Virus record (IMG/VR): IMGVR_UViG_3300009503_000018
Span: 1 to 64,000 of that record
From: a virus
DNA length: 64,000 nt
Strand: one strand, 5' to 3'
Shown here: positions 1,617 to 61,739 of the stretch, one piece after another
Layout: every line of letters starts with the position of its first letter
How positions within the stretch are numbered: the first letter of the stretch is position 1
Position numbers and translations under genes: made by a program
Notes under the pieces: model-generated
The model's database searches: none
Told to the model about the DNA's origin: nothing
What the model saw: only the letters and a program-made list of their open reading frames with translations

Positions 1617-4600
1617 CTATTTGCCCTCTACAAATATATGCGTGTTCGTGTCATCCGTAGACAAAATCGCACGAATATCACAAGCAATTTCTTCGGGAAT
1701 ATTCTGCAAATCAGCCGTTTTGCGCATTATATCCCGCACGACCGATGCGGGTTGAGACAAACCGCCCGCTGATCCAGGCGCACCAGCCCCTTGACCAACC
1801 TCTTCTCCTGGCGGTGTCTTGGGCGCCGGCTTGATCTCCCCAGGTCCCGGTCCTAGCCCTAATCCAAGGGGCAAACCTAACCCCCCACCACCAGGACCTT
1901 TTCCACCACCCAGGGATGACATTAACAATTGATTTTTTGCAATCGTCGCCGCATCTTGCCCTAACGTGGCCATTTCCGCGTCGTAATCCAAACCAGCGCC
2001 CTGGACCACACTCCGAGGCGAAATCCATCCTTTCTGCGCCAATTCAGACCAGAAACGGAGAATCGCTTCATCTTGCCGCACATCAAGGCGCTTTTCAAAT
2101 TGTAAATGCGGATACAACAAATGTTTACCTTTTTGCACACGGGATTTTGCCGTTGCTGCAACCTTCGACATCGCAATATACCGACGGCTTTTTGCCATAT
2201 TGACTTCTTCAATCAATGGCTGAATTTTCAGAAATTCATATGCTTGTTTTTCCGGATCTTGAATAGCACGAATTTCTCGCATGCGATCCTTGAGAAACAT
2301 CGTCTGCTTTTCCAACACAGGATCGCGAGAATCAGGCAGATCGGGTTCACTCTTTTTTGGCTTTCGGTAAAACCCGTTGAGTTCTGCCATGACCGCAAAG
2401 ACTTTTTTATAAATCCAATCCGATACAAACATTTCACGCAGCGTGCGATACCGCATCATCAATACTTGCAATCCAGCATTCGCGCTATTGTACGTGCCGA
2501 CGTTTTCGGCCAGGAAAGAATGCGTACCTTCTACCGTAATATCAATTACGGTTTCATTATTTTCTATTGGTTCAATTTTTTCTATAGGGAGATACACATA
2601 CTTTTCATCAACCCACGCCTGTTGACGAGAATGCGGAATAGGCCACTCAACACCCCATACCATTTTCGCCAAATCACGAGCAAATTTTCCATAAATATTA
2701 ATTTGATGCAAATCCTGCCGTTCATATCCGTCACGACGCACAACCCCTTTTTGGGTTGTGCGAGAACACGCGTATCCTAATTGCGCAAGCAAAAGCTCGA
2801 CTTGATAGGCGAGTTGTTCACTCGTCGTGCGATATCCAATATAGCGCTGTACCCATTTCTTATTCTTGTACGGCGTTTTTTCGAGTAACGACCCATCTCC
2901 ACGGAAAAGCCCTGTAATAAATTCTCTCTTATACTCTAATGGCCAATGCATGACCTCTTCTGATAATTGCTTGCGATGTGAGTATTGCCCGCCATGATAA
3001 CTAAATAAAAATCCTGAAGGGGCTCCGATGTAAACGCGCGTAACGTTCGGCTGATTTAGAGAATTACCAACAACTTTTGCCCCACTACATGCCAACCGTC
3101 TAGTAGCCGTCATACCAAGAGTTTCAGCCAAAGCGCACGCATCTTTTGCCCACGTGTCGTATTCAGCCGCACTAAAAGTTAGTTCACACCTTTTTCCCCC
3201 AATAATGCTACCTTCAGCCACATAATACCCGAGCAGGCGGGCAAATTCGATGGGTTGGCTTGGAGCAACTGCCTCGAACTCTCGTGGGACCATAAAGTAG
3301 TCACCAATGCGCAAATCTTTTGTCGGGAGTTTTTGATACGGCTCATAATTCGCTGGAAGTTTCTTCAACGATTGATGACGCCCAATGGTCCAGCGCGCAC
3401 CAGTATCCTTAAATGCGGGTTGTCTTTCCACTGTCACATGATGCTTAAGATGTTGGTACCAGGAGGTAAAAACACCCTGTATGGAACGTCCAGGGAAAAA
3501 CTCCTGGGCAAGTTGGTGCCGATTACGGCGTTCCAATAACCACGCGTCATGTAAAGATTTCGAACGAGGATGCCGACACATCAAACACTTTTTCGAAGCG
3601 TTGATCGTGTACGATGTAATACGAGATCTCACCTGTTTTCCACACGTTCGTGGCCATACCCATACTGGCCACCGATGTTTATCACTGGCGATAATGGTTT
3701 TATTCCCGGCCAAGCGAATTTTATACATTGGGTTGATAACCCCTTCATCCCACTTGTCCAAAACTTTCCTTGAATGACCGTCTTTGTCAATGATTTCGTC
3801 CCCAACTTTGATGTCACCCAACGGAACATAAGAACCATTTTTCTTCAGTATTTTCGCGGACTTACACAATGTGGCATACGTGGTTTCTCCGTGCAGGAAA
3901 GATTTATTAATTCCCAACGCAACCAATTTTGCCCGTTCAATCACATCCCATTCATTCGTGATTTTGAGCTGCTTACCTTCAATGCCATGATATTCTACTT
4001 GCAACCCATAATGATAGACAATCGCCGCCAATGGATCGACTTCAGATTCGGCCAAGACTTCAATAAATTCTTCCATGTTCTGCGGCGACGGAATCCATCC
4101 TTCTTTCGGATCGCCGAGCTTGAACACCCGCAGTGGCAACGCATGTCGTTGCGCCTGTTGAATCTGACCATTAAACACGGCGTCTTCATACATCAAAATG
4201 CGGAACAACCGTCCCATAATACTCGTTCCGCGAATATCGTATGGAAACGCCTTCCGTGCGATATGTGAAGCGTTAAGCGGGTCTAAGGGAATATTTTTTC
4301 CACCAGCAATGGACGCCAAAATATCCGAAGGGATCTTATTTCGAAGACGAACATATCGTGGATCTGTACTTTGCAAAATCCGCCGCAAATCTTGGGACGG
4401 ACGCAACGTCAAAATTGGATCGTCATCAATTAGCGGGGAATCAACAACTTCAACGTAATCAGGATTATGTAACGTAATATGCGTGAATATTCCTTCTTTA
4501 TCGTCCCAAAAACAAAAAGGAAAAATCTCCCCGATGATGAGATATTCACGTGTCATTTTGGGGAGCCAAGACAGGAGTTCTGTCTGATTCAGCATGTCTT

Positions 4601-5006
4601 CATAGGCATGCAAAATCGTCTGTGACTCATCACCAGGCTCATCCATAATGAGATATGCCCCAGACCACGGCATATCCCCATGCATGTCGATCGCTCCGCC
4701 GATAACCGGATCGACGTTGTAAAACAAACGCCAATATTGGTTGAGTTGAGCGAGTTGGACCGGAAGTTGTAACCGATCCGGAGAGGAGAATAACGGATGA
4801 TACGGACGCGCGGGTGCCCGTATCACCGAAGCACCGCCGGACCCAGCGAGTCCGGCGGTTGCCGTCCGACGAAAATTCGGGTGCGCTACACCCGTCCCTT
4901 GAACATCTGGTCCACCATAATGAAAAATGGATGGACCCGATCTATTAGCGCTCGCGGTTGCTGACGCGTTTTTCGAAGCAAACTTCTCTAAGTCTTCTCT
5001 CGCCAT
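1617..5006 (-). CDS. Portal protein interrupted by a LAGLIDADG intein
   Basis: The 1129-residue precursor would splice to about 667 residues. Portals form the dodecameric DNA-entry ring at the capsid vertex. The N-extein (1-378) has portal-like features: the segment RLFYNVDPVIGGAIDMHGDM near residue 93, a long alpha/beta wing region, and HGETTYA just before the insertion. The C-extein (from residue 841, SANAGLQVLMMRYRTLREMF) continues the helical crown and ends in a Gly/Pro-rich tail (roughly residues 1025-1085). The intein spans about 379-840 with an endonuclease domain (LLGYYVAEG, GLFRGDG). The start at 5006 (MAREDLEKFA) is the first ATG. The intein is a sister of the one in the terminase at 48.5-49.7 kb. 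The portal call rests on extein pattern and length and on the packaging-motor context. Confidence 0.85.
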   Translation of the reverse strand: MAREDLEKFASKNASATASANRSGPSIFHYGGPDVQGTGVAHPNFRRTATAGLAGSGGASVIRAPARPYHPLFSSPDRLQLPVQLAQLNQYWRLFYNVDPVIGGAIDMHGDMPWSGAYLIMDEPGDESQTILHAYEDMLNQTELLSWLPKMTREYLIIGEIFPFCFWDDKEGIFTHITLHNPDYVEVVDSPLIDDDPILTLRPSQDLRRILQSTDPRYVRLRNKIPSDILASIAGGKNIPLDPLNASHIARKAFPYDIRGTSIMGRLFRILMYEDAVFNGQIQQAQRHALPLRVFKLGDPKEGWIPSPQNMEEFIEVLAESEVDPLAAIVYHYGLQVEYHGIEGKQLKITNEWDVIERAKLVALGINKSFLHGETTYATLCKSAKILKKNGSYVPLGDIKVGDEIIDKDGHSRKVLDKWDEGVINPMYKIRLAGNKTIIASDKHRWPVWVWPRTCGKQVRSRITSYTINASKKCLMCRHPRSKSLHDAWLLERRNRHQLAQEFFPGRSIQGVFTSWYQHLKHHVTVERQPAFKDTGARWTIGRHQSLKKLPANYEPYQKLPTKDLRIGDYFMVPREFEAVAPSQPIEFARLLGYYVAEGSIIGGKRCELTFSAAEYDTWAKDACALAETLGMTATRRLACSGAKVVGNSLNQPNVTRVYIGAPSGFLFSYHGGQYSHRKQLSEEVMHWPLEYKREFITGLFRGDGSLLEKTPYKNKKWVQRYIGYRTTSEQLAYQVELLLAQLGYACSRTTQKGVVRRDGYERQDLHQINIYGKFARDLAKMVWGVEWPIPHSRQQAWVDEKYVYLPIEKIEPIENNETVIDITVEGTHSFLAENVGTYNSANAGLQVLMMRYRTLREMFVSDWIYKKVFAVMAELNGFYRKPKKSEPDLPDSRDPVLEKQTMFLKDRMREIRAIQDPEKQAYEFLKIQPLIEEVNMAKSRRYIAMSKVAATAKSRVQKGKHLLYPHLQFEKRLDVRQDEAILRFWSELAQKGWISPRSVVQGAGLDYDAEMATLGQDAATIAKNQLLMSSLGGGKGPGGGGLGLPLGLGLGPGPGEIKPAPKTPPGEEVGQGAGAPGSAGGLSQPASVVRDIMRKTADLQNIPEEIACDIRAILSTDDTNTHIFVEGK
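2487..3872 (-). mobile_element. Intein with DOD homing endonuclease in the portal gene
   Basis: The segment encodes about 462 residues. Block A is visible as SAKILKKNGSYVPLGDIKVG, and the splice end as ITVEGTHSFLAENVGTYN followed by Ser+1. The endonuclease blocks are EFARLLGYYVAEG (residues 587-599) and EFITGLFRGDG (695-705), with acidic catalytic residues present. Aligned to the terminase intein, the first residue would be Thr379, not Cys; a Cys lies two residues later at 381. The penultimate residue is Tyr, not the usual His. Boundaries at the N end are therefore uncertain by two residues. Confidence 0.85.
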
Positions 5007-18778: not shown

Positions 18779-21700
18779 CTATCGTGGTCTATGCGTGTAT
18801 GGTCCGGTCGATGTCGGCGTCAGATCAGCAACATCGACTTGGAACTGCCGACGCTGACTGTCTTCGACCGTTGCGCGATTTCCAGTATTGTCAATGGCAA
18901 TAACCAAAACTTCCCGTCCACGATACATTGCGGGTTGGAAAATGCCCATCCCCTTGTCAAGAAGGGCTTTCTTTGACAAGGCGACACTTGCCGTGCTCTT
19001 CTTCTGATGACTAAAGTAATGAACTTGCTTTAGTCTCTTTTTGGCCTGTTCTCGCGTCTTATACGGACCACCGAGATTTTTGCCCTCCTCCGATTTTACA
19101 TAATATGCTCCCGGTCGTCCAACAATCTTCCCCACCAAAAGGCGCGCGGATAAGAGTCTCGTAGTCCCAATAAACCATCGTGCTAACTCGTCTGCCTCAT
19201 GAGAAGCCAATTTTCCAGATGCTTTGTAAAAGCGCAAAATCTCTCGAATATCCGCAATGGACAATGCATGACGATATTCAGTAATTGCTTGCTTCAAATC
19301 GCCGGAACGGCGAAATGCCGCGTGTACTTTTTGCTGCACGGCACGATTTGCTTGTCTCTTTGCCTCATAATCTTCTAGATCCCCTCCATACAGATACTCC
19401 CCGCATTGTGAACAATATTGTGGGGAGTCGCTTTCACCGAAAAAGATCGGTTGTGGAGTGATATCCGAATCATACATATCCGCGTCAGGAATAACATTCG
19501 GACCTTGAGCGATAATTTCCGAACCACAATCAGGGCAGTAAATCTCTCCTTGATAGACATACCCATCAAGACCCGGACCACCGAGAAGCAGCTCGGATTT
19601 TGTCACAGCCGTCTTCCTTCGGGCTTCATGACTCCCTAAATTTCCCCCATACAGATACGCCCCGCATTGTGAACAATGCTGTGGGAGTTCATGTTCACCG
19701 AAAAAGATCGGTTGTGGAGTGACATCTGAGTCGTATGCATCTTCATCAGGGACGACATCCGGACCTTGAGCGATAATTTCCGAACCACACGGAATACAAT
19801 AGAGTTCCCCGCGATAAACATACCCATCAAGACCCGGACCACCACGAAGCAATTCAGACTTTGTTGCCGCTTCTTTTGTCGTTGACTTCCATGACGGATA
19901 TTCATCACTCTCTCGGGGATACAACGCGCTTTGATCAGCACGTGGAGTCTCTCGTGGAGCTTGGCTCACCTGATCCGGCCGTTCCATATATTCAGTCTCC
20001 CACGGCGCTTTATACCACCACGCGGTCTTGCGTACTGCTTGTCGCCGCTTGAGCAAATTCCACTGGCGCTGTGCCTCTTCTCGTGTCTCGGGATCTGTTT
20101 CTGGATCATTGATAATATTAAACAACGCCCGAAGCTTTTCTTGAATGTCAGACGATTCTTGAGCAATGAGTTGTCTTCGCGATAATGCTCGTGCGTTCGC
20201 ATGATGCGGATATCGCGTCCATGTCGCACGACACGTTGGACACCAATACTTGTCCTCGGTTTTCTTAATCGTTAATTCTCGACAATTTGGACACGTCCCA
20301 GATTCTAACAACATATGACGGAATCTCTTTTCTAGGTACGCAGCATCCAACTGTCTACGAGCTTCCTGCCGTTTTTCGGGATCCGCACTGGGATCAGCGA
20401 CAATATCAGACAATCGGCGAATTTTTTCGACAAGATCCCGATTCTCGGACTTATCAGACGATTCTTGAGCAATGAGTTGTCTTCGTGCCATTTTGTTTCC
20501 TTCGAGAGTCCACGTGGAATGACAACGCGGACATCGGTATCCGGTCTCGGTCTTATGAACCCGAGATTTTCCACACTCCGGGCAAAATCCAGCGTGTAAC
20601 ATATGGATAGGTTTTGGTGATGTTTTACGGATCAATTCTTGTGCAACTTCTGATACATCGCGCTGTGAATACCGATGCCGACGATATTCTTTTGGCAAAT
20701 CGTACAATTTCTTTTCACAGCGTGTGCATTCTGGCGGATAATCCTCAAGCTCCCCGAGAAAAATTGGCTGAGGGACGATATTCTCGTCATACCCCTCATC
20801 TTCGCTATACACCTCTGGACCTTTTTCGATAATTTTCCGCCCACACTCAATACAATAGGGCTCGCCTTTATAGACGTATGCTTCCAGTGCGGGTCCTTGA
20901 TAAGCCGTTAACAGGTCTTCTTTTGTCCACTGGCTTTGGCGGCGGAAAGACTGTTTTTTTGATTCCTCCGGCGCGTCGGCTTCTTCTTTTTCTTCCGTGA
21001 CAAAATCCTGTAATTGTTCTGTAGCATGTTCAAGATGTTCGACCGTTTTCTCTAGTATTCGAACTTCCTCCGGCTCGACCCCTTCCGCTTTTTCATGTTC
21101 AAGGACATCCTTGACATGTTCGGTTACATGTTCGACATCGGACTTTAGCGTTTCGACAATTTCCTCTTCTAGTAGCTCTTCCGGATCACCAACGAAATCA
21201 AATCCCAATTCTTTTGGCGTCCCAGTATCGACAACTTCTAATTCAATGACTGGAACTTCCGTATCTCCAATTCCTGGAAATGCGACAACGGCAAAATTAT
21301 CGTTTGCATACCGCAAAAAGAGCGCTTCTTTCCCGTTGACACGCACCACATCACCTCGGGCAAATCTCTTTTCGGCTGTTCCGACGACCTGCCGTTCGGC
21401 GAGAGCAGAACTAATTTTCGTTAACTGCCGAAGATATATCTTCACACCGCCGTGCGACTGAAGTCCCGCAGAAATCAAAATCGCATTCGCCTGCTCCCAC
21501 GACATTCCAAATTCATAAATAAGAGCCTGCTCCACGCTATCGCGGGAGAGGTATTCACGCGGTTGTCCTTTTCCAGTATACAGGGTATAGACAAATGAAG
21601 CGCCAGACGTTGCACTCCGTCGGCACGTGATATACGCAGTCGGTGGGATCCGCTTCCACACCTCTCGCTCTTTCTTGAGTTTTTCATTATGCTGATCAAA

Positions 21701-21892
21701 CCATGCGTCTGCGATCTTCACTTGATGACTTGAAAACCGACCACATTTTACGCAATGGTAGTCCACCGTCCCTTGAACATGTTGTGGACCAACCGTGATC
21801 GACGCAGTCCGTTCGCACCAAGGACAAACCACATCAACTGATCGCGAGGATGTGAGTGCCTGTGCAACATCGAGCCCTGATAATTTCGTCAT
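18779..21892 (-). CDS. Zinc-ribbon repeat protein (at least eight ribbons) with LSKK and RRQLIAQESSD tags
   Basis: The protein has 1037 residues. The N terminus has a ribbon (VCPWCERTASI...CVKCG). A barrel-like unit lies near 170-225 and a long acidic coiled coil near 230-310. Module Z (a two-part ribbon, [GA]YVYxGExYC..CG..II...GP then TPQPIFFGE...CSQCG.YLYGG) occurs three times (about residues 330-400, 680-750 and 765-835). A second ribbon unit of about 115 residues ending in RRQLIAQESSD occurs twice (about 435-570). The C terminus has VALSKKALLDKG followed by a barrel (QPAMYRGREVLVIAIDN). The whole reads as a string of duplicated zinc modules. It is likely a large virion-associated or nucleic-acid-contacting protein, by inference only. 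Confidence 0.75.
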   Translation of the reverse strand: MTKLSGLDVAQALTSSRSVDVVCPWCERTASITVGPQHVQGTVDYHCVKCGRFSSHQVKIADAWFDQHNEKLKKEREVWKRIPPTAYITCRRSATSGASFVYTLYTGKGQPREYLSRDSVEQALIYEFGMSWEQANAILISAGLQSHGGVKIYLRQLTKISSALAERQVVGTAEKRFARGDVVRVNGKEALFLRYANDNFAVVAFPGIGDTEVPVIELEVVDTGTPKELGFDFVGDPEELLEEEIVETLKSDVEHVTEHVKDVLEHEKAEGVEPEEVRILEKTVEHLEHATEQLQDFVTEEKEEADAPEESKKQSFRRQSQWTKEDLLTAYQGPALEAYVYKGEPYCIECGRKIIEKGPEVYSEDEGYDENIVPQPIFLGELEDYPPECTRCEKKLYDLPKEYRRHRYSQRDVSEVAQELIRKTSPKPIHMLHAGFCPECGKSRVHKTETGYRCPRCHSTWTLEGNKMARRQLIAQESSDKSENRDLVEKIRRLSDIVADPSADPEKRQEARRQLDAAYLEKRFRHMLLESGTCPNCRELTIKKTEDKYWCPTCRATWTRYPHHANARALSRRQLIAQESSDIQEKLRALFNIINDPETDPETREEAQRQWNLLKRRQAVRKTAWWYKAPWETEYMERPDQVSQAPRETPRADQSALYPRESDEYPSWKSTTKEAATKSELLRGGPGLDGYVYRGELYCIPCGSEIIAQGPDVVPDEDAYDSDVTPQPIFFGEHELPQHCSQCGAYLYGGNLGSHEARRKTAVTKSELLLGGPGLDGYVYQGEIYCPDCGSEIIAQGPNVIPDADMYDSDITPQPIFFGESDSPQYCSQCGEYLYGGDLEDYEAKRQANRAVQQKVHAAFRRSGDLKQAITEYRHALSIADIREILRFYKASGKLASHEADELARWFIGTTRLLSARLLVGKIVGRPGAYYVKSEEGKNLGGPYKTREQAKKRLKQVHYFSHQKKSTASVALSKKALLDKGMGIFQPAMYRGREVLVIAIDNTGNRATVEDSQRRQFQVDVADLTPTSTGPYTHRPR
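19375..20905. repeat. Duplicated zinc-ribbon modules inside the 1037-residue gene
   Basis: Two close copies of module Z lie at about 19380-19595 and 19634-19855 on the plus strand (they share accgaaaaagatcggttgtg and acccatcaagacccggacca). A third, diverged copy lies at about 20695-20905. A different ribbon unit is doubled at about 20040-20310 and 20315-20600, each copy containing gattcttgagcaatgagttg. The near-identity of the closest pair suggests recent duplication or gene conversion. Confidence 0.85.
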
Positions 21893-21955: not shown

Positions 21956-22393
21956 CTATAAAGTTTCACCGGTAAGGGCATAATACGCCTTTTGAACACG
22001 ATCTGCTAAATCCAATTCCCCCATATAAACTGCATTATTGTACAATATTCGAAGTTCGTAGGCCGTCATGTCATATGCATAAAACAGAGCGTCACGCTCT
22101 TCTTGCATCTCGTCAGAAAGTTCCGGCTCTTCTGGAGTCGGCAAAGAAGGAGAAGGCTTCCGGGGTTTTCCTGGGGACTTGAGTCTCCGTTTACTCGGGT
22201 CAAACTGCAAAATTTCGGCGGCAGTAATTTTTAACCCCGATTTTGGCAATTCTGTCCATGTATAAGGAATCTCCCGAGGAGTCGGACCTAAAACTTTCTG
22301 TCGGTCACGACCAACGGGTTTTTGTTCTACGCGATACATGTCCCGACTTTTTTCCAGCCAAGCCGCTTTTTTTGATAATGGTATTTTTTTCAT
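21956..22393 (-). CDS. Tag-bearing protein (LSKKAA plus KITAAE), unknown
   Basis: This 145-residue protein starts MKKIPLSKKAAWLEKS and carries LKITAAEILQFDPSKRRL at about residues 54-71. Both segments are shared with the 30-residue gene just upstream. The rest is Pro-rich (KPRKPSPSLPTPEEPEL) followed by a helical C terminus (MQEERDALFYAYDMTAYELR...ADRVQKAYYALTGETL). The helical end could be a small independent domain. No family is recognised. Confidence 0.7.
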   Translation of the reverse strand: MKKIPLSKKAAWLEKSRDMYRVEQKPVGRDRQKVLGPTPREIPYTWTELPKSGLKITAAEILQFDPSKRRLKSPGKPRKPSPSLPTPEEPELSDEMQEERDALFYAYDMTAYELRILYNNAVYMGELDLADRVQKAYYALTGETL

Positions 22394-22396
22394 GAT

Positions 22397-22489
22397 TTAA
22401 ACACGCCTTTTTATCATATTTACAACTTCAGCCGCCGTAATTTTCAATCTTTTTTCAAGCAAAGCCGCTTTTTTTGATAATATTTTCAT
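22397..22489 (-). CDS. 30-residue peptide made only of two shared tags
   Basis: This short gene encodes 30 residues: MKILSKKAALLEKR followed by LKITAAEVVNMIKRRV. The ATG overlaps the stop of the 858-residue gene by one base (TAATG), the same coupling used at 18185. It ends four bases before the next gene. Its whole length is the LSKKAA..LEK tag plus the KITAAE tag, with no domain attached. Either it is an expressed minimal tag or the remnant of a larger gene; the intact overlap and frame favour expression. Confidence 0.6.
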   Translation of the reverse strand: MKILSKKAALLEKRLKITAAEVVNMIKRRV

Positions 22490-27754: not shown

Positions 27755-28246
27755 TTACAAAACGCAACCCGGAATTACTTCTCCTGTCTCAATATTACGA
27801 AGTCGAAGTTTTTGAACACCCCCATCACTCAGATTTCCAGGAGATTGCCGCCACACCTCGATCCACCTCTTCAATTCCTGAATCGCCTGTTCTAATGTCC
27901 AGGGACCAAACGTGTCTTCATCAAATACCGCATCGGGACCTCGCGCGATAATAGCTTCACCACACGGAACACAATATTCTTTTCCTTGATACCAATATGC
28001 GGTGAGTCCTATATGAGCTTTATCACTTTCATTAAGAAACAACCCACCATATACATACTCCCCGCATTGAGAACAATAATGAGGACTTTCATTATCATCA
28101 CCACCAAACAACACGGGTTGTGGGGTAATATTTGAATCAAAATCTTCTTCTTCCTCGAAGATTCTATCATCTAAAGGACACCGGCGGACATATATCCAAT
28201 TCCAATCAGGATGGAAATATTCAATAATCCAAGTCTTGTGCTTCAT
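27755..28246 (-). CDS. Small-paralogue family member carrying a permuted zinc-ribbon module
   Basis: This is a 163-residue protein. Its ends (MKHKTWIIEYFHPDWNWIYV and PWTLEQAIQELKRW ... LRLRNIETGEVIP) match the neighbouring gene at 28280-28498. Between them (residues about 24-114) lies module Z of the 1037-residue protein, but with its halves in the opposite order: TPQPVLFGG...CSQCGEYVYGG first, then YWYQGKEYCVPCGEAIIARG. The function is unknown. The split is sharp at residue level, so a domain insertion is a direct reading of the sequence. Confidence 0.75.
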   Translation of the reverse strand: MKHKTWIIEYFHPDWNWIYVRRCPLDDRIFEEEEDFDSNITPQPVLFGGDDNESPHYCSQCGEYVYGGLFLNESDKAHIGLTAYWYQGKEYCVPCGEAIIARGPDAVFDEDTFGPWTLEQAIQELKRWIEVWRQSPGNLSDGGVQKLRLRNIETGEVIPGCVL

Positions 28247-34201: not shown

Positions 34202-34627
34202 TTATAACTTGTGCTCCACGTAATGTCCGACGACGCAGTCGTACCCGCGCTCCTTCGCCGCCTCTAGTGCTTTAGCCCGTAGCTTGGCGGATACACCCGA
34301 ACGGCGCCAAATGTGCGCAACGAACGTGCCCCAGTCGTAACAAACGCGCTTCGCGCACCAACCCGGCGCCGCGCTCTCGCCCCACAGAATATATCCCACG
34401 ATCGCGCCACATGGCCCCATTTCCGCAATGAACGTCGGCTCGCCGCGTTGCGACCATTCGAGGCCCATCTTCCACAGCCGATCCACGTTTTCGTCCGTCG
34501 GCGCCAGGAGGAATCGGAATCCGTCTCGCGCTGCCTCTTCGAGACATGCACGGATCATCGACTTGAGGATAAACGAGTCTTCGGGCCGCCACGGACGAAT
34601 GTTAATCACTTGTGCCTTCTTAGCCAT
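34202..34627 (-). CDS. GNAT-family acetyltransferase
   Basis: This 141-residue protein follows the GNAT order: INIRPWRPEDSFILKSMIRA (N-terminal strand-helix), PTFIAEMGPCGAIVGYILWG (central sheet), FVAHIWRRSGVSAKLRAKAL (acetyl-CoA pyrophosphate loop, R-R-S-G-V/A) and AAKERGYDCVVG. GNAT enzymes transfer acetyl groups to amines of proteins, peptides or small molecules. The leader and the first residues MAKKAQ are shared almost exactly with two plus-strand genes at 40.4 and 40.7 kb. Base composition is more GC-rich than the neighbours. Confidence 0.85.
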   Translation of the reverse strand: MAKKAQVINIRPWRPEDSFILKSMIRACLEEAARDGFRFLLAPTDENVDRLWKMGLEWSQRGEPTFIAEMGPCGAIVGYILWGESAAPGWCAKRVCYDWGTFVAHIWRRSGVSAKLRAKALEAAKERGYDCVVGHYVEHKL

Positions 34628-34742
34628 AAGGGTCTCCTTTGTTAACGGGAAAGCCTATCATACACGGGTTCGTGAATTTTGTCAATGCGCGAGTGCTATG
34701 TTTATGCCTATAGCTGCCGTAGCAAGTAGTGAATCACACTAT
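34622..34742 (-). repeat. Promoter-leader cassette, copy A
   Basis: About 120 bases including TTGACA (34680-34685), spacer aaattcacgaacccgtg, TATGAT (34657-34662), the leader, GGAGACCCTTATG and the first codons are nearly identical to 40320-40417 and 40563-40707. Copies A and C also share the upstream agtgtgattcactacttgct, the 3' end of the 69-residue gene at 40401. Confidence 0.9.
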
Positions 34743-34867
34743 ATACAGTTAACTTAACTAACCCAGTTTTGGAATGCCTTGAGGATTCTCGTAGCGTACC
34801 ACTTGATACAGTTAACTTAACTAACCCAGTTTTGGAATGCCTTGAGGATTCTCGTAGCGTACCACTT
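34741..34867. repeat. 62-bp tandem duplication at a gene's 3' end
   Basis: The end of the 94-residue gene (tacagttaacttaactaacc through gtagcgtaccacttgata) is repeated immediately downstream of its stop, with no change seen. The duplicate carries the last codons and the stop but no start, so it is untranslated. Confidence 0.9.
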
Positions 34868-40304: not shown

Positions 40305-40342
40305 GAGGAATAATGAATAGGCATAAACATAGCACTCGCGCA

Positions 40343-40371
40343 TTGACAAAATTCACGAACCCGTGTATGAT
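40343..40371 (+). promoter_or_regulatory. Promoter-leader cassette, copy B
   Basis: TTGACA, 17-base spacer aaattcacgaacccgtg, TATGAT, followed by cgttaacaaaggagaccctt and ATG. The cassette covers about 40320-40417, and the sequence is shared with copies A and C. Confidence 0.9.
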
Positions 40372-40400
40372 AGGCTTTCCCGTTAACAAAGGAGACCCTT

Positions 40401-40610
40401 ATGGCTAAGAAGGCACAGACGATGTACAACTGGTGGCTAGCTCGACTCGAAGGGGACAAGGCAACTCCAGAGCAACATGCGCGGATTCTGGAGTTGGCCA
40501 AACAATTGAATAAGAATTATCCTGAAAAGGTAATTCTGGAAGCAGTCCAGAGCACAATGTGCAGAGAATTCGCTTATAGTGTGATTCACTACTTGCTACG
40601 GCAGCTATAA
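40401..40610 (+). CDS. Small unknown protein MAKKAQTMY, copy B
   Basis: This 69-residue protein starts MAKKAQTMYNWWLARLEGDK and continues as a helix pair. It has an AAAGGAGACCC site. The leader and first nine residues are identical to those of the next gene. A fragment of its 3' end is also present upstream of the GNAT gene at 34.7 kb. The function is unknown. Confidence 0.7.
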   Translation: MAKKAQTMYNWWLARLEGDKATPEQHARILELAKQLNKNYPEKVILEAVQSTMCREFAYSVIHYLLRQL

Positions 40611-40632
40611 GCATAAACATAGCACTCGCGCA

Positions 40633-40661
40633 TTGACAAAATTCACGAACCCGTGTATGAT
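40633..40661 (+). promoter_or_regulatory. Promoter-leader cassette, copy C
   Basis: Identical to copy B (spacer aaattcacgaacccgtg) and directly downstream of the 69-residue gene. It drives the deoxyribosyltransferase-like gene. The cassette covers about 40563-40707. Confidence 0.9.
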
Positions 40662-40690
40662 AGGCTTTCCCGTTAACAAAGGAGACCCTT

Positions 40691-41152
40691 ATGGCTAAGA
40701 AGGCACAGACGATGTACCAGATCACGATTGACGGATCGCCGCTGAACGTGCGGCGGTTGGACCGTGTTCCGCTTATCTACGTGAGCGGCCCGTTGACGAC
40801 GGGCCACATGCCAACGAACATCCGTAACGCGCTAGAAATCGCGTACATGTTGATGACAAGCGGCTACTCCGTCATTGTGCCGCACGAGCAAGCGCTGCTG
40901 ATGGAAGCGCTGTATCCGATGAGCTATGTGGAGCGGCTACGCTACAACTTCAAATGCCTCCTTGCGTGCGATGCGGTATACCGTATCAGCGGCGAATCGC
41001 GGGGCGCGGATTTGGAAGTGCGGTTCGCGGAGTCTCGCGGTATCCCCGTGTTTAGTCAGCTTATCGACTTGATGAAGAACGTACCGCCGGACAAGTACCG
41101 CCCGCGCGTCAAGGCAAACAGGAGAGTCAAGCCGACGACGCGGTGTGCTTGA
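40691..41152 (+). CDS. Nucleoside 2-deoxyribosyltransferase-like (DUF4406) protein
   Basis: This 153-residue protein has the family core: PLIYVSGPLTTGHMPTNIRN (N-terminal strand and loop), VERLRYNFKCLLACDAVYRI and SRGADLEVRFAESRGIPVF. These enzymes cleave or exchange deoxyribose-base bonds; DUF4406 members are common in phages, where the substrate is not known. GC content is high. The first residues MAKKAQTMY come from the shared cassette. Confidence 0.8.
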   Translation: MAKKAQTMYQITIDGSPLNVRRLDRVPLIYVSGPLTTGHMPTNIRNALEIAYMLMTSGYSVIVPHEQALLMEALYPMSYVERLRYNFKCLLACDAVYRISGESRGADLEVRFAESRGIPVFSQLIDLMKNVPPDKYRPRVKANRRVKPTTRCA

Positions 41153-47493: not shown

Positions 47494-47940
47494 TCAATGA
47501 GGAATTACCTTCATTATACCGCACGGGTATCTCATAAATCGGACATTTTTCCGCACGACTTTTTTGCCGGACCACAAAGTCGGAATATTCTCATGCACTA
47601 GCTCGCGAGCGTCGTTTATATAGTATACTTTTTTGACGCCGTAGTCTCGAAGCATAGCAAAACACGCCTGACACGGTCGTGAGGTTGCCAAGAGTCCCGT
47701 CCGAGTAATCCGGACGACGAACATCGTCCCGCCTTTCGATTCCGACAAAGGAACTCCCAACAACGCATCTGCCTCGGCATGAATGGTCTTCCAGAAACAA
47801 TAGCTCTGTGGATGCGTTTTCGGCTGATTTGTACCGAATGAAACAACTTTGTTCCCTCGGGTTAGGACCGCACCCACATGATACTTGTGCGAAGACCGCA
47901 AAGCGGCCCTCTTTGCGAGTTCAACAAAACGCGTATTCAT
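47494..47940 (-). CDS. dCMP/cytidine-type deaminase
   Basis: This 148-residue protein has the zinc deaminase motifs IHAEADAL (His54, Glu56) and SRPCQACFAML (Cys90, Cys93). The layout fits dCMP or related deaminases that make dUMP for dTMP synthesis or alter base pools. Phages use such enzymes for nucleotide supply. It is divergent from terL with only 10 bases between the start codons. Confidence 0.85.
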   Translation of the reverse strand: MNTRFVELAKRAALRSSHKYHVGAVLTRGNKVVSFGTNQPKTHPQSYCFWKTIHAEADALLGVPLSESKGGTMFVVRITRTGLLATSRPCQACFAMLRDYGVKKVYYINDARELVHENIPTLWSGKKVVRKNVRFMRYPCGIMKVIPH

Positions 47941-47950
47941 AAAGAGTTAC

Positions 47951-50900
47951 ATGTTTAGGATGACATCAATATCTTCGGATGAAGTCGTGCCGGTAGAAGA
48001 CCCTTTTGCTTCTGATCCAAGTGTAGCACACATATTGGACAAAATCAAGAGCGCTGTTACTACCCGCTGTGATCGAGGTCTGCCGAAAATTACTCTAGCA
48101 CAGAACTTCAAACAATTCAAGAACATCATCCATTTCGTGACCGATCCAGAAGGACTCGCATTGAATACGCTATGGCATTTTAATCGGCAGTATCAGTACA
48201 TGCGGGATTTTTATTCGCTACTGTGTCCACAATGTAATAAGCCAGGTCCGAATCCCGAAGCCCCATTCGATTGTTGGGGAAAATCCGCCTTACAGCTCCA
48301 AGACGATGTGTTATTTGAAAAAAACGCGATGGGCGAATATCAATGCCCACAATGCGGTCTTTTGCAAAAAGACTCGGGACTACCGAACTATCGTGAAATG
48401 ATTGGAGTCTGTGGAATGCGCAGTGGCAAAACCATGCTCGCAGCGCAAATCCTGTTATACGAGCTTCATTGTGATTTACTCCTTAATGACCCACAAAAAT
48501 CTTGGGGTTTGGCGCCGGGGCAAGAAGTTTATTATTGCTTAAAAAAAGGCAGTCTCATCAATACTACACAAGGATATAAACCAATTGAAATTATTGGTGA
48601 AGGAGACGTTGTTATTGACAAAGACGGGAATGAAAATGTGGTAATGCAGGCCTGGGGAGAGGGTGTTCGTCCTATTATGGAAATTTCTTTGTACGGAGGA
48701 AAAAAAATATACGCCACCCCTCAACATACTCACCCCGTTTGGGCTTGGCCAAGATTATGTGCATGTGGATGTCGACGACCGGTTAATTCTGGTGTTTTAT
48801 ACGTGTCTGGACATAATTTTAATCGGCAGGTTGTAACGAAAAAAGCCGGCGCGACGATTACACAAGGTCATAACACATATCGGAATATCCCCTACGATTA
48901 TAATCCTTTTCAGCGCTTACGCACTGATGAACTACGAAAAGGTGATTATTTTCTTATTCCACGACATTTCAATGAAATCAAACCAAAACAACCAATTGAA
49001 TTTGCACGGTTGTTAGGATACTACATCGCTGAAGGAAATTCCGTTTCAAATCGAAAGGCCATTTACTTGAACTTTAGCGCTCACGAATATGAAACGTGGG
49101 CAAAAGATGCGGTAGACTTGGCGCGCGGGCTTTCCTTTGTTGCTTCTCGGAATGTACGATCTCCTCGATCACGTGTGTATATTGGATCCCAATCTTTAGA
49201 ATTATTTGAGTATCACGGTGGACGGTATTCTTCAAAAAAGCACTGTAGTGAAGAAGTAATGCGTTGGCCCCTCAAATATAAGCGTGAATTGATTATTGGA
49301 TTATTTCGCGGTGATGGAACACGAGGATATTATAAACGAAATAAAGACAAAAAAATATTTATGGTCCAATATACTACAACTTCTAAAATTTTAGCATTAC
49401 AAATTGAATTACTTCTGGCTCAACTCGGTTTTCCTTGTGCGGTATCGTGTGTTCACAAAAAGCTGCCGCGCCACGATTGTTATATTTTGCAAATTCGTGG
49501 AAATTTTGCTAAACAATTGGCACATATGATTTGGGGTGATGAATTTCCTGTTTTACCATCCAAGAAATGGAGAACCCAAGCGTGGGTAGACGACCAGTAT
49601 GTGTATATTCCAGTCCGATCTGTGAAGTTTGTTCCTTCCGATGAAGTATACAACATTACAGTCGATAATTCACATTCATATTTATGTGAAAACATTGCAA
49701 CTTATAATTCCGTTGCAACCACGAAAGGCGAACAAGCCAAAGACACGATTTTTGCCGCGATTGATGGCCTATTTACGAATTCTCCGTGGTTTACGCGCTA
49801 TGTCAATGCCCTTAAACATACAGCAAAAAACCAAGGAGTTCCTGTAGACAGCGTTTTCGTCAAAAACTTGTCGGAGATTCGCTTCTTGCACAAACAGCTT
49901 TTTGTGGATTTAACCGGCTCGAACTCGGCTGGCATAGCCGGAAAAACCCGAAAAGTGTGCGTTGTCGACGAAGTCGCGCGATTTATGGAAACCGAAAGTC
50001 GCATGGGTGTAGACGCTGTTTACGATACGCTCAAAGCGTCGCTTCTTACGCTTTCCAAATACGGATCGAAAATGATCTGTATTTCGTCTCCACTGTTCAA
50101 AACCGACAAAATCATGCGCCTCAAAGAAGAAGCACTCACAACGATAGAACACGCAAAAGCGGAGGGAAAAACCCCCTTTGTCCTCGTATTTCATCATGCG
50201 ACATGGGATTTTAATCCGAATATTAAACTAGAAGACGCATTTATTCAAGAAGAATTTCGGAAAAATCCTGTCGCAGCACGCCGAGACTTTGGTGCGGACC
50301 CTCCTGGGGCGTTAGATCCGTGGATCCCCGAGGAATCTTGGATTGATAGATGTGTAGACCCAGACATTACAAATCTCGTGTTCGTTCGCGATAGGACAAG
50401 ACCACGTCTATTGAAAGACAATGTCACAACAGTTGTGCAAAAAGATCTGGCGAGCATGGTCTTGGATGTGCCGACGACCCGACACATCACAATTGCCTGT
50501 GACCCAGGATATCGCAAAGACTCGTTTGGTATGGTCTTAGGATATACAAAGTTCACGGAAACACAGCGAGGGGGTGAGGAACATTTGTACGTGGGTGCCG
50601 TTCTTGTATGGGAACCCCGGGAAAAACCGCGAATCGAAGTTGATTTTGTGAATGTCCTAGACTGTATTCGTCGATTTGCGAAACATTGGATCGTTGACAA
50701 AGTGTATTATGACCAATGGCAGTCAATTTTTCAAATTCAACAACTTCGAGATGAAGGAATTGATACTGATCGAATATCCTTGGAACCAAAAGATTGGGAT
50801 TTGCTTGCAACGCTGATTTACAATCAGCAAATCCATTTACTCTCACCAGACAAAGGGGGGAAAGCGGCAGAACGGTTGCTTTGGGAACTCAAAAATCTTC

Positions 50901-51070
50901 AAATCAAAGACAAAGGCAGAGTAGACCACGCTTCGTATTCTTCCAGCGATTTGGCAGTTTGTTTAGCTCGTCTTGCAAAAGCTTTAGTAAGTCCTCAAGC
51001 GGGACGGAAAAAGACTTTGGATCAACGCTCGGCGGGGATTGCTCGGACCGTGCATTTGCGCCGACCGTGA
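47951..51070 (+). CDS. terL: Large terminase subunit interrupted by an intein
   Basis: The start is taken at MFRMTSISSDEV (47951); an earlier frame overlaps the deaminase gene. The spliced protein would be about 648 residues. Walker A is in CGMRSGKT and Walker B in KTRKVCVVDEVARFM. The nuclease Asp lie in CDPGYRKDSFG, YYDQWQSIFQ and DHASYSSSDLAV. The ATPase lies before the nuclease, as in other TerL. A zinc-ribbon pair (CPQCNK, CPQCGLL) lies near the N terminus, which is unusual. The intein (48536-49708) sits just before VATTKGEQAKDTIF. TerL packs DNA through the portal. Confidence 0.9.
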   Translation: MFRMTSISSDEVVPVEDPFASDPSVAHILDKIKSAVTTRCDRGLPKITLAQNFKQFKNIIHFVTDPEGLALNTLWHFNRQYQYMRDFYSLLCPQCNKPGPNPEAPFDCWGKSALQLQDDVLFEKNAMGEYQCPQCGLLQKDSGLPNYREMIGVCGMRSGKTMLAAQILLYELHCDLLLNDPQKSWGLAPGQEVYYCLKKGSLINTTQGYKPIEIIGEGDVVIDKDGNENVVMQAWGEGVRPIMEISLYGGKKIYATPQHTHPVWAWPRLCACGCRRPVNSGVLYVSGHNFNRQVVTKKAGATITQGHNTYRNIPYDYNPFQRLRTDELRKGDYFLIPRHFNEIKPKQPIEFARLLGYYIAEGNSVSNRKAIYLNFSAHEYETWAKDAVDLARGLSFVASRNVRSPRSRVYIGSQSLELFEYHGGRYSSKKHCSEEVMRWPLKYKRELIIGLFRGDGTRGYYKRNKDKKIFMVQYTTTSKILALQIELLLAQLGFPCAVSCVHKKLPRHDCYILQIRGNFAKQLAHMIWGDEFPVLPSKKWRTQAWVDDQYVYIPVRSVKFVPSDEVYNITVDNSHSYLCENIATYNSVATTKGEQAKDTIFAAIDGLFTNSPWFTRYVNALKHTAKNQGVPVDSVFVKNLSEIRFLHKQLFVDLTGSNSAGIAGKTRKVCVVDEVARFMETESRMGVDAVYDTLKASLLTLSKYGSKMICISSPLFKTDKIMRLKEEALTTIEHAKAEGKTPFVLVFHHATWDFNPNIKLEDAFIQEEFRKNPVAARRDFGADPPGALDPWIPEESWIDRCVDPDITNLVFVRDRTRPRLLKDNVTTVVQKDLASMVLDVPTTRHITIACDPGYRKDSFGMVLGYTKFTETQRGGEEHLYVGAVLVWEPREKPRIEVDFVNVLDCIRRFAKHWIVDKVYYDQWQSIFQIQQLRDEGIDTDRISLEPKDWDLLATLIYNQQIHLLSPDKGGKAAERLLWELKNLQIKDKGRVDHASYSSSDLAVCLARLAKALVSPQAGRKKTLDQRSAGIARTVHLRRP
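48536..49708 (+). mobile_element. Intein with DOD homing endonuclease in terL
   Basis: This 391-residue intein begins with Cys1 (CLKKGSLINTTQGYKPIEI) and ends NITVDNSHSYLCENIATYN before Ser+1. Endonuclease blocks are FARLLGYYIAEG and ELIIGLFRGDG. It is a clear sister of the portal intein (shared FARLLGYY[VI]AEG, YETWAKDA, WPL[KE]YKRE and ELLLAQLG). The penultimate residue is Tyr rather than His. Confidence 0.9.
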
Positions 51071-57234: not shown

Positions 57235-57349
57235 AATGCCAACGTTTGCTACACCCACTACTAGGATAGTGGAAAATTACTCAAGACGCAGGTGATTGAT
57301 CTTCGTGCATGTTACCGCGCGATTGCTATAGCACGTTAGCGTGACGTAG

Positions 57350-57424
57350 TGGGGGCGGTGGGAATCGAACCCACGTTTAGCCGGATTAAAAGTCCGGAGC
57401 AATGCCAACGTTTGCTACACCCCC
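57350..57424 (-). tRNA. tRNA-Lys(UUU)
   Basis: On the minus strand: acceptor GGGGGTG/CGCCCCC with A73, D-arm GCAA...TTGC, anticodon stem CCGGA/TCCGG with loop CTTTTAA (anticodon UUU) and T-arm GTGGG/CCCAC. It has its own promoter at 57431-57458 and lies directly upstream of an Rnl1-type ligase. Confidence 0.95.
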
Positions 57425-57430
57425 ACTACT

Positions 57431-57458
57431 AGTATATTGGAAAATTACTCGAAGTCAA
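57431..57458 (-). promoter_or_regulatory. tRNA-Lys promoter
   Basis: TTGACT, 16-base spacer tcgagtaattttccaa, TATACT, ending 7 bases before the tRNA 5' end. A damaged copy of the same promoter stands upstream of the ligase in the duplicated segment. Confidence 0.7.
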
Positions 57459-57519
57459 GACGCAGGCGATTGATCTTCGTGCATGTTACCGCGCGATTGC
57501 TATAGCACGTTAGCATGAC

Positions 57520-57981: not shown

Positions 57982-58545
57982 TTACAATAATGCTGTTTTG
58001 CTCAAAATCCCTAAACCACAACAATGGGGATAATTGTAAAACAGCATATTTTCTTGTGCAGCAATATCCCCAACAGCTCTTTTCACCTCGGGAAAGCTTT
58101 CTGTGTCATGGAAAATTACCACATTGGCGTGTTTCGCCGCCCACAAACCACATTGATATGTAGGTGTATACTCATGAACAATGTCAATATGAACTAAATC
58201 ATATTGTTCAGTATTATTTTGAATGAAATCTTCAAAACTGCTGGCTATTACTTCAATATTTGAGTAGGGTGATAATGTGTGTCGTACCCGATTTTCAAAA
58301 TCGTAATCCCTAAAGCCAGCGCACACATCACCTTTGAAATGATCAACAGCAATAACGCGCGAAAAATAATTACTTAAAGCCACGGTTGAGTATCCATAAT
58401 CTACACCAAATTCTAATGCCGTATTCCGAGGAATACGAAACCTCTCAATTAAGTCAAGAAGAATGCTCTCTAAGCCCTTCCACGCCGAAGGAACATCAAT
58501 GAGTTTAGGTGGAAGATTAATTTTGCGGGGGAAATACAGAATCAT
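57982..58545 (-). CDS. Class I SAM-dependent methyltransferase
   Basis: This 187-residue protein has motif I TALEFGVDYGYSTVALSNYF, VIAVDHFKG, YDLVHIDIVHEYTPTY and VVIFHDTESFPEVKRAV. The layout fits the Methyltransf_24-like family that modifies small molecules or sugars. The C terminus ends GILSKTALL, a tag-like segment. The start overlaps the next gene's stop by 4 bases (ATGA). Confidence 0.8.
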   Translation of the reverse strand: MILYFPRKINLPPKLIDVPSAWKGLESILLDLIERFRIPRNTALEFGVDYGYSTVALSNYFSRVIAVDHFKGDVCAGFRDYDFENRVRHTLSPYSNIEVIASSFEDFIQNNTEQYDLVHIDIVHEYTPTYQCGLWAAKHANVVIFHDTESFPEVKRAVGDIAAQENMLFYNYPHCCGLGILSKTALL

Positions 58546-59261
58546 GTAATCGGTCCAGACTTAAGCGCTTGGCTGAGATCTGGAGTTTGCGTCAATTGCT
58601 GCAAATTTTTTTGGAACAGTTCCGCTTGTTGCTGCGCCGGCATAGTCATGACTTGTAACGCGGCAATATTCGCTTTCAAACTCATAGCGGCTTCCATAAA
58701 TTTAGTAAATACTTTGGATAATTTTTCGCTACTTTCTGGGGGAATGACTTTCATTAAAGCGAGCATACTATTACTAATATCTTGAATAGCCTCGTCAGTA
58801 AAGTGCTGGTCTAGTGTTTGGATAATGCTTTTAAGATCAGTAGGTTCAGATTCTGGTTTTTCTTGTATTGGCTTTTTTGGCGCGTCCTCAGTCGGCGGGG
58901 GTTGGAGTTCGGAAGAAGGGCGCTCCGGGCGTTCTGAACTTACTGGAGATGGTGTGCGCGAAGGAAAGGCTTTTGCTCCTGGAAGAGGAGCCGCCATTTT
59001 CTGCAATACTTCGACTCCTGTTACTTTCATACCCTCTTTCATCCACCGATTAAGCTTTTCGGCCCGTTCTTCGGCATCCTCCCGTCTCAAATACTGAGTT
59101 GACTCTGGATATCCTTCAGGACTCACAACAAGATAATAATCGTCCCAGCTTGTTTTTCTCCCAGGAGGTCTAAAGTACACAACACGCCACTCGCCAGTCC
59201 CTTCAAACTTTAGAGGTTTAAAACCCTTTTCATTCGCCACTTCGGCCGCTGTTACTTTCAT
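58542..59261 (-). CDS. Tag-bearing protein (KVTAAE and KGFKPLKFEG), unknown
   Basis: The start is taken at MKVTAAEVANEKGFKPLKFE (59261) behind TTGGAGAAAAAGC; the earlier Met lacks a site. The 239-residue protein begins with both tags, then GTGEWRVVYFRPPGRKTSW, then a second MKVTGVEVLQKMAA copy near residue 76. The rest is Pro-rich, then helical. The function is unknown. It shares tags with 59710-59961. Confidence 0.75.
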   Translation of the reverse strand: MKVTAAEVANEKGFKPLKFEGTGEWRVVYFRPPGRKTSWDDYYLVVSPEGYPESTQYLRREDAEERAEKLNRWMKEGMKVTGVEVLQKMAAPLPGAKAFPSRTPSPVSSERPERPSSELQPPPTEDAPKKPIQEKPESEPTDLKSIIQTLDQHFTDEAIQDISNSMLALMKVIPPESSEKLSKVFTKFMEAAMSLKANIAALQVMTMPAQQQAELFQKNLQQLTQTPDLSQALKSGPIT

Positions 59262-59445
59262 GCTTTTTCTCCAAGAGATCACAAATTTTATTAATATCTC
59301 TACAAATACCTTCTATTCGACGGAGGATCAGATACTCAACATTTAACTGATCTTTTAAAACAGCCAAAACATCCCCTAAATCATACTGCTTTTCTACTAC
59401 TTCAATAGGTTCGCGTCGAGACCGTTTACTCACTATAATACACAA
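59230..59445 (-). CDS. Small helical protein
   Basis: This 71-residue protein contains VEKQYDLGDVLAVLKDQLNV and DINKICDLLEKK. It overlaps the following gene by 32 bases. No family is recognised. Confidence 0.6.
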   Translation of the reverse strand: MCIIVSKRSRREPIEVVEKQYDLGDVLAVLKDQLNVEYLILRRIEGICRDINKICDLLEKKHESNSGRSGE

Positions 59446-59664
59446 CTATTTTTCGTCGAGCGTAGGAGTATTCCGCAAAATCTCGCGAAAATCCTGCCCC
59501 GGATATTGGGCATACGTGCGAGTTTTACTCTCCTGATTAGGAAGCTGGCTATGAAATGTAAATACTATTCTCTTTTTTTCGATTGTGTATTCGACATTTT
59601 TTAAAATCTCGTTGGGAAATGCCTCTTGAAATGCTTCTCGAATTTTTAAAATATTCGGGGACAT
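59446..59664 (-). CDS. Small unknown protein
   Basis: This 72-residue protein MSPNILKIREAFQEAFPNEI has strand-rich segments (YTIEKKRIVFTFHSQLPNQE). It is part of the same minus-strand operon. The function is unknown. Confidence 0.6.
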   Translation of the reverse strand: MSPNILKIREAFQEAFPNEILKNVEYTIEKKRIVFTFHSQLPNQESKTRTYAQYPGQDFREILRNTPTLDEK

Positions 59665-59709
59665 GACCTTATTGGCATCAGATAATGTTTGAATTTTTTG
59701 AATCTTTTG

Positions 59710-59961
59710 TTAGATGATTGTGACTCCGCGTTTGTGTTCTTCATCAAGCCACCTCTGGATAATCGTTGTTGCGATACTGGGTTCCGATGCCCCTTTAATA
59801 ATTGAAATAATCTCGTTAATAGAAAGGGTGATATTAATTTTGGCTAAACGGGGTTGATATTCCACGGCGAGTTGCTCGACGGTTTTTCGAGAGACCCGCC
59901 CCCGCCATTTGTTGGTCCCCTCGAACTTTAGAGGTTTAAAACCCTTTTTCCCCGCTCTCAT
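59710..59961 (-). CDS. Tag-bearing small protein (KGFKPLKFEG)
   Basis: The start is taken at MRAGKKGFKPLKFEGTNKWR (59961); a GTG earlier overlaps the exonuclease stop. This 83-residue protein shares KGFKPLKFEG plus its exact DNA (aactttagaggtttaaaacc) with 58542-59261, then is helical (KTVEQLAVEYQPRLAKINIT). The function is unknown. Confidence 0.65.
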   Translation of the reverse strand: MRAGKKGFKPLKFEGTNKWRGRVSRKTVEQLAVEYQPRLAKINITLSINEIISIIKGASEPSIATTIIQRWLDEEHKRGVTII

Positions 59962-59965
59962 GTCA

Positions 59966-61579
59966 TCACAACGTATCAGCCAATTCACGAATCAGTTTCC
60001 AATCGTGAAGAGACTTCACGACATCACTGTGTCCGTTCGGACCTTGCTGTAACCGCATTAAATACGAGGGGTGGAACACGGGTATGAAAGTAATCCCAGG
60101 CCAATCAGGATGCGTCAGAATAGCGCCTCTTGCTGTCGAAATTTTTTCAGTAACATGTGGAAATACGGCTTTGAAGGCTTTATCTCCTAGCAGGATCACC
60201 AATTTTGGGTTCACTAAACGGATATGCGCACGAAGGCGTATGTTGCACGCCGAAATTTCCTCCGGTGTTGGAGCACGAATTTCCCCATTCGAATTTGGAA
60301 AGCACAAAACGACATTAGTAACGTGAATTTGGTTACGATCTAGTCCTGCATGGGCAAGTAAGGTTTCATTGAGATATTTCCCCGCTCGACCGCAAAATGG
60401 CGAACCGAAAAAGTCTTCACTTGGACCCGGTGCCTCACCAAGCGCCATAATCTTTGCCTTAGCCGGTCCCGAATATTTTACGATAGTGTTTCTTTTTTCG
60501 TGCAGCGGACATCGTGTACAGTCGCCCCATACACTAAACATGTCGTCTAGAGATTCGGCAGATAACAACTTTTTTTCAAATGATGACGTATCAGTCAAAA
60601 TATCACGTAATCCAGTCCCGACTTTTTTGAGTTCGTATGCGTCGAGGAATCTGTGGATTTCGTCCCAATCTACTTGAGGTTGTATATTCCATTGTTTTAG
60701 AAAAACGGTCCTCTGGTCTTCATCTAATTGATCAACTGATGAAAGAATATATGATAATTCATAGGCCATACGAATCTGTTCAGCATATTCGGGGATTTGA
60801 CTCATAATCGCTGTTTTGGGGTTGTTGTTGGCTTCATCAAGCAAATTAACAATATTGCCATATTGAGCAATCAATTTAGCGGCGATCTTTGCCCCAATTC
60901 CCGGAACGCCCGGAATATCGTCATGTACATCCCCCATCAACGCTTTTACTTCGGCCCATTGCGCGGGCTCTATTCCGTATTTTTCCACGAAATCAGATGC
61001 GGTGAACAATTTCTTTTTAACCGGGTCGTATTGAGATACCGTTGGCGATAATAATTGATATAAATCTTGATCTGAAGAGACGACTATAACATGCCCCAAT
61101 GCAGACAACGTATCAACCGCGATTCCGATTAAGTCATCGCCTTCGACTTCATGAATCGTCAGTTGCATAATCCCCATCGCTGGGAGAATCTGTTGTAGCG
61201 CTTCCATTTGAGGTAAGATCTTTTCTTGAAAGTTGCGGTGCTCTTCATCGGAACGGTTTTTGTAGCGACTCTCTTTGTACTGCATCGGCAGATCGTCGAA
61301 GATTCTAGCCGCCGAAGAGTCGGGGTCCTTCCGCGCTAACTCTTCGATTTTCGCACGATAGGCTTTAAGGACTCGTCGGCGATACCGGGATTTGTGGTCC
61401 CAAACAACAACAATTTTTTCAGGCTTAAACTTTTTAACAACTGCACAAAACGAAGAAAGAAATCCGTGGATTATTCCAGTGGCATCACCGCGCTTTGTCC
61501 GAAGAGCCTGCCCGCTTGCCGTATTCCAAATACGGTAAACTAAATAATTTCCATCAATTACGACAAATGTCGTGGGCAT
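59966..61579 (-). CDS. 5'-3' exonuclease fused to family-4 uracil-DNA glycosylase
   Basis: The start is taken at MPTTFVVIDGNYLVYRIW (61579) behind GGAAAGTC; a longer frame overlaps a zinc-finger gene. This is a 537-residue protein. Residues 1-320 are a FEN/T5-exonuclease domain: VVIDGNYLVYRIW, EVEGDDLIGIAVD, VVSSDQDLYQLL and the helical clamp IPGVPGIGAKIA. Residues about 345-535 are a UDG of family 4: Fe-S Cys (CTRCP, then Cys426 and Cys445), GEAPGPSEDFFG, LVILLGDKAFKAVFP and HPSYLMRL. This would remove uracil and process 5' flaps in one protein. I am not aware of this fusion being common. Confidence 0.9.
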   Translation of the reverse strand: MPTTFVVIDGNYLVYRIWNTASGQALRTKRGDATGIIHGFLSSFCAVVKKFKPEKIVVVWDHKSRYRRRVLKAYRAKIEELARKDPDSSAARIFDDLPMQYKESRYKNRSDEEHRNFQEKILPQMEALQQILPAMGIMQLTIHEVEGDDLIGIAVDTLSALGHVIVVSSDQDLYQLLSPTVSQYDPVKKKLFTASDFVEKYGIEPAQWAEVKALMGDVHDDIPGVPGIGAKIAAKLIAQYGNIVNLLDEANNNPKTAIMSQIPEYAEQIRMAYELSYILSSVDQLDEDQRTVFLKQWNIQPQVDWDEIHRFLDAYELKKVGTGLRDILTDTSSFEKKLLSAESLDDMFSVWGDCTRCPLHEKRNTIVKYSGPAKAKIMALGEAPGPSEDFFGSPFCGRAGKYLNETLLAHAGLDRNQIHVTNVVLCFPNSNGEIRAPTPEEISACNIRLRAHIRLVNPKLVILLGDKAFKAVFPHVTEKISTARGAILTHPDWPGITFIPVFHPSYLMRLQQGPNGHSDVVKSLHDWKLIRELADTL

Positions 61580-61739
61580 GACTTTCGGCTTTCCGGCTCT
61601 TAAGTCGGTTTCTTCTACAAACGGGACCACAAAAGCGACGTTGCGTCCGTCCCTTTTCGTTTTCCGCTGTTGTTGCCGGGAGGACAATACCTTTGTTGCA
61701 GGTTTCGCATATCCCGACCACTTCAACTAGTAAGCTCAT
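61554..61739 (-). CDS. Small zinc-finger protein
   Basis: This 61-residue protein has CETCNKG near residue 11 and CGPVC near residue 37, a C2/C2 finger with a basic tail. AGGATCAACT precedes the ATG. It overlaps the start of the exonuclease gene by 26 bases. The long alternative N terminus of the exonuclease gene uses the same DNA in another frame. Confidence 0.65.
   Translation of the reverse strand: MSLLVEVVGICETCNKGIVLPATTAENEKGRTQRRFCGPVCRRNRLKSRKAESHAHDICRN

Follow-up and report, generated by a model that had tools for sequence, protein, structure and literature searches.

Two neighbouring, otherwise different phage genes share a short in-phase DNA segment near their starts: a probable trace of local partial duplication

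Two neighbouring genes of an uncultured phage encode proteins that carry the same peptide, KGFKPLKFEG, close to their N termini. This raises the question of whether this peptide, together with a second motif, K[IV]TAAE, is a mobile tag carried on a short start cassette from gene to gene, as proposed in the initial annotation, or whether the shared residues have a more local origin.

The phage and the two host genes

The locus lies in IMGVR_UViG_3300009503_000018, a record of 139,527 bases, of which bases 1-64000 constitute the window, that is, the whole stretch of DNA analysed. The record encodes a major head protein and a head maturation protease; its best-ranked terminase match, at 27% identity, belongs to a virus of a DAMO/AAA enrichment culture, Virus Rctr197k, and portal, head, tail and packaging genes are common to both. 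From these head and terminase genes and the matches to Rctr197k, the record is assigned to a tailed phage remote from the well-studied ones. Two of its genes are interrupted.

1617-5006, minus strand: portal gene carrying an inserted segment with endonuclease-like matches
47885-51070, plus strand: large terminase gene carrying an inserted segment with endonuclease-like matches

These two inserted segments are 41% identical over 474 aa and, judging from their sequences, are probably inteins. The genes that carry the shared peptide, called here P1 and P2, and the repeated DNA within them are as follows.

58542..59261, minus strand: P1, open reading frame for a 239-aa protein starting MKVTAAEVANEKGFKPLKFEG, with GGAG 7 bases ahead of the ATG at 59261
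59710..59961, minus strand: P2, open reading frame for an 83-aa protein starting MRAGKKGFKPLKFEGTNKWR, with its ATG at 59961
59185..59230, minus strand: P1 copy of the repeat, KGFKPLKFEGTGEWR; 85% identical to the other over 46 nt, 25 of them exact (59206-59230)
59903..59948, minus strand: P2 copy of the repeat, KGFKPLKFEGTNKWR; 85% identical to the other over 46 nt, 25 of them exact (59924-59948)

The upstream neighbour of P2 is an exonuclease-UDG gene (59966-61726, minus strand), in which a 5'-3' exonuclease is fused to a uracil-DNA glycosylase domain, and its stop codon stands 4 bases before the ATG of P2; in Rctr197k, a similar UDG segment sits at the start of a polA-like gene. Compared with their counterparts in two related contigs, L007 and L008, P1 and P2 have 14 and 5 synonymously differing codons, and 2 and 3-4 nonsynonymous ones, respectively. 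Since both genes are present in these relatives with such counts, the codon comparison indicates that P1 is clearly, and P2 probably, a real gene. P1 gave no confident match in Pfam, PHROGs or a PDB sequence search and was assigned to no family; its only relatives among viral contigs are in two near-identical ones (97-99%), and none was found in annotated phages, plasmids or prokaryote genomes, weak matches (E > 1) being discarded.

The copied segment, its limits and its distribution

The extended peptide KGFKPLKFEGT[GN][EK]WR was found as annotated near the starts of both proteins, at 59225 and 59943, and the figure of at least 24 identical bases was borne out by an exact match of 25 nt, a kind of pair of which about 4e-7 are expected within 3 kb. 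In an all-against-all comparison of the 180 predicted proteins, P1 and P2 scored 36.2 bits (E 8.5e-6); in three shuffled proteomes the top-scoring pairs reached 28.5-30.8 bits. The two copies are 718 bp apart, on one strand and in the same reading phase. The proteins are indeed otherwise different: BLASTP aligns 18 residues only, no further DNA match was found, and the full-length alignment named beforehand as evidence against copied tags was looked for and not seen. As neither the protein alignment nor the DNA match extends further, full-length paralogy is unsupported. An old paralogy of P1 and P2 over their full length, with a single conserved segment left, might be suggested by RW[LM], which by eye stands near the end of a comparable stretch in both. 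Nevertheless, an exact 25-nt match next to complete divergence would not be expected of such a pair, and the predicted structural elements differ (strands plus a helix in P1, at low confidence, and three helices in P2), so that common descent over the full length is highly improbable.

The repeat starts 31 bases into P1 and 13 bases into P2, and thus neither the ribosome-binding site nor the start codon was copied. The proposal of a copied start tag therefore stands in one respect, KGFKPLKFEG having been copied as DNA, and fails in another, since a repeat lacking both signals and present in two local copies is not a mobile start cassette. Nor did the idea of a tag spread beyond a local pair hold: in the whole 139.5-kb record the peptide occurs twice, in these two genes only. 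At the sensitivity used, a degenerate pattern of KGFKPLKFEGT searched against 2.9 million viral contigs matched only L007 and L008, both copies being present in each, and the exact 19-base core gave the same outcome; a scan of 84,980 prokaryote genomes with the degenerate pattern yielded nothing, and neither KGFKPLKFEGT nor K[IV]TAAE was found in the distant relative Rctr197k. Being near-identical relatives with both copies, L007 and L008 show no gain or loss. It may be added that both also hold the tRNA-Lys gene of this phage (57349-57424, within 57281-57519) and the 65-nt direct repeats, 97% identical, that flank it on both sides.

As read in the window, the two copies disagree at 9 of 24 bases in their right part and at none in the left 25 nt (Fisher p 0.0006, with a split point picked post hoc). 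In L008, the copies are identical at 33 of 34 bases, after which a third-position change and then decay are observed. All changes inside KGFKPLKFEGT fall at third codon positions (n=3), a faint sign that selection acts on the peptide. Alternatively, the 25 nt of DNA or RNA could itself be a conserved element, such as a binding site or an RNA structure, with the peptide incidental, since the left seven codons have no synonymous change and the right part has changed. Such an element is very unlikely here: no other copy exists in the record at up to 7 mismatches, the RNA of the two copies folds no better than shuffled sequences (z -0.06 and 1.56), and the distances to the start codons are unequal.

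The K[IV]TAAE motif and the gene pair at 22 kb

The second proposed tag occurs in P1 and in two reading frames some distance away.

21956..22393, minus strand: open reading frame for a 145-aa protein with LSKKAAWLEK and LKITAAEI
22397..22489, minus strand: 30-aa open reading frame, MKILSKKAALLEKRLKITAAEVVNMIKRRV, a short relative of the 21956-22393 gene with LSKKAA[LW]LEK and LKITAAE in common
59238..59261, minus strand: MKVTAAEV, the start of P1, with a short helix predicted from residue 5 at low confidence
59007..59030, minus strand: MKVTGVEV inside P1 (residues 78-85), with a short helix predicted from residue 82 at low confidence

The motif is located as first described, with KITAAEI at 22231, KITAAEV at 22444, KVTAAEV at 59258 and the variant KVTGVEV at 59027, all on the minus strand. 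Its assignment to N termini was only partly correct: one copy starts P1, whereas the 59.03-kb variant and the 22.23-kb copy are internal, the latter about 54 residues into its protein. The view that it was copied as a tag between 22 and 59 kb did not survive comparison with shuffled proteomes, where matches of this kind are near chance. At the composition of these proteins 0.001 occurrences of the pattern are expected, a value to be read with the fact that the pattern was chosen after looking; pairs of 8 residues scoring as high as the match between the 22-kb and 59-kb copies numbered 385-401 in three shuffled proteomes, and triples of that score 0, 0 and 1. Across 22 and 59 kb, K[IV]TAAE is thus not clearly above chance. 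T-x-x-E is a common helix-start pattern, and the motif at the two loci is best read as this pattern recurring by chance. K[IV]TAAE[VI] has no occurrence in the record beyond the three named copies.

Within each locus the situation is different. In the two reading frames at 22.2 and 22.4 kb, LSKKAA[LW]LEK (33 nt, 94% identical) is followed by LKITAAE, and because the two motifs stand in the same order in both, these frames most likely derive from a local duplication in which one copy lost sequence or the other gained it. A search for relatives of the 22.2-kb protein found none. In P1, the two copies, compared from the K codon onwards, agree at 17 of 21 bases and may represent an internal repeat (residues 1-8 and 78-85).

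Two further features were observed in the record. LS[KR][KNR] occurs 19 times in the predicted proteins of the record (200 shuffles: mean 4.2, maximum 11), mainly on the minus strand of window positions 645-26250, often as MxxLSKKxxxL at N termini or close to zinc-ribbon modules. A large protein encoded at 18779-21892 (minus strand) contains several internally repeated zinc-ribbon modules, one of which is also found at 27755-28246.

Origin and possible function of the shared segment

We consider, with a probability of about three in four, that KGFKPLKFEGT arose by local, partial gene duplication and that both copies were then kept. In this event, some 35-46 bp near the 5' end of one gene would have been duplicated, with the phase preserved, into the 5' part of another gene 718 bp away on the same strand. 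The data show directly that DNA was copied, how far the copy extends, that it is in phase, that in the collections searched the segment is confined to this lineage, and that two relatives retain it; the route, which we infer, would be template switching during replication or recombination at short homologies. Exact direct repeats (16 bases or longer, copies within 3 kb) number 36 in the record and 0 in three shuffles; most of the 36 are coding, agree in phase, and fall inside a single gene or between adjacent paralogues. The repeat shared by P1 and P2 fits this habit of local duplication, but the genes that flank it are not paralogues. Two observations weigh against duplication: the 718-bp spacing exceeds that of most other local repeats in the genome, and the difference between the right and left parts is not predicted by a single event followed by uniform decay, a difficulty that L008 softens but does not remove.

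Alternatively, KGFKPLKFEGT and K[IV]TAAE could be functional tags, for docking or, as in the T4 internal proteins, for capsid targeting, that spread to several proteins. Consistent with this, the amino acids of KGFKPLKFEGT are unchanged between copies and relatives, and the phage has a head maturation protease. AlphaFold modelled residues 12-22 of P2, where the peptide lies, with a pLDDT below 50, as a predicted disordered N terminus ahead of a folded three-helix body (residues 21-83, block pLDDT 69-88). The P1 model is poor around the peptide, and the models of both proteins were built on three near-identical sequences. By contrast, the peptide is confined to two genes, K[IV]TAAE[VI] is near chance level and absent from the major head protein, the protease and the portal, and P1 and P2 adjoin the exonuclease-UDG fusion gene and a methyltransferase gene rather than head genes. 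Because of these neighbours and of that absence from head genes, a capsid-targeting role is unsupported, and spread functional tags as a whole are unlikely. A docking role for KGFKPLKFEGT is possible, and any function of the peptide would most likely be that of a short flexible N-terminal binding segment in P1 and P2. The bolder idea that the phage equips unrelated early proteins with a disordered N-terminal docking peptide, by in-phase copying of tens of bases between neighbours, seems quite improbable. Foldseek, run for P2 against PDB and viral models and for P1 against the viral models, gave no match at E 0.001 or better; with VIA-align 2, all Z scores for P2 were below 5, DNA-binding and ribosomal L11-like chains appearing at Z 2.3-3.9. 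A scan for promoter-like sequences gave matches at chance level. A literature search on short peptides common to phage proteins returned nothing relevant.

Local partial duplication remains our preferred reading, and KGFKPLKFEGT is a real copied segment, ordinary in this genome. It would provide a small, clean case of short-range duplication giving two unrelated proteins one N-terminal segment, and it separates a segment that was copied from a motif, K[IV]TAAE, that looks copied and is not clearly above chance.

This record does contain a true start cassette. It is present in exactly three copies of 107-133 nt, nearly identical, ahead of three different open reading frames; none was found in other viral contigs.

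34611-34743, minus strand: MAKKAQ cassette
40321-40427, plus strand: MAKKAQ cassette
40611-40717, plus strand: MAKKAQ cassette

The cassette consists of a TTGACA-17-TATGAT promoter, AAAGGAG, ATG and the codons for MAKKAQ(TMY). Here copied DNA gives different genes identical first residues, as the KGFKPLKFEGT repeat does for residues near the start; the cassette, however, holds a promoter, a ribosome-binding site and a start codon, and the repeat holds none of them. The T4-type capsid-targeting sequence is likewise a short N-terminal peptide common to otherwise different phage proteins, but in P1 and P2 there are only two copies, beside replication and repair genes. With the local and partial gene duplications of phage genomes, the P1/P2 repeat has in common a short in-phase direct repeat, neighbouring genes and a repeat-rich genome; it differs from them in being very short (35-46 nt) and in being joined to two otherwise unrelated genes.
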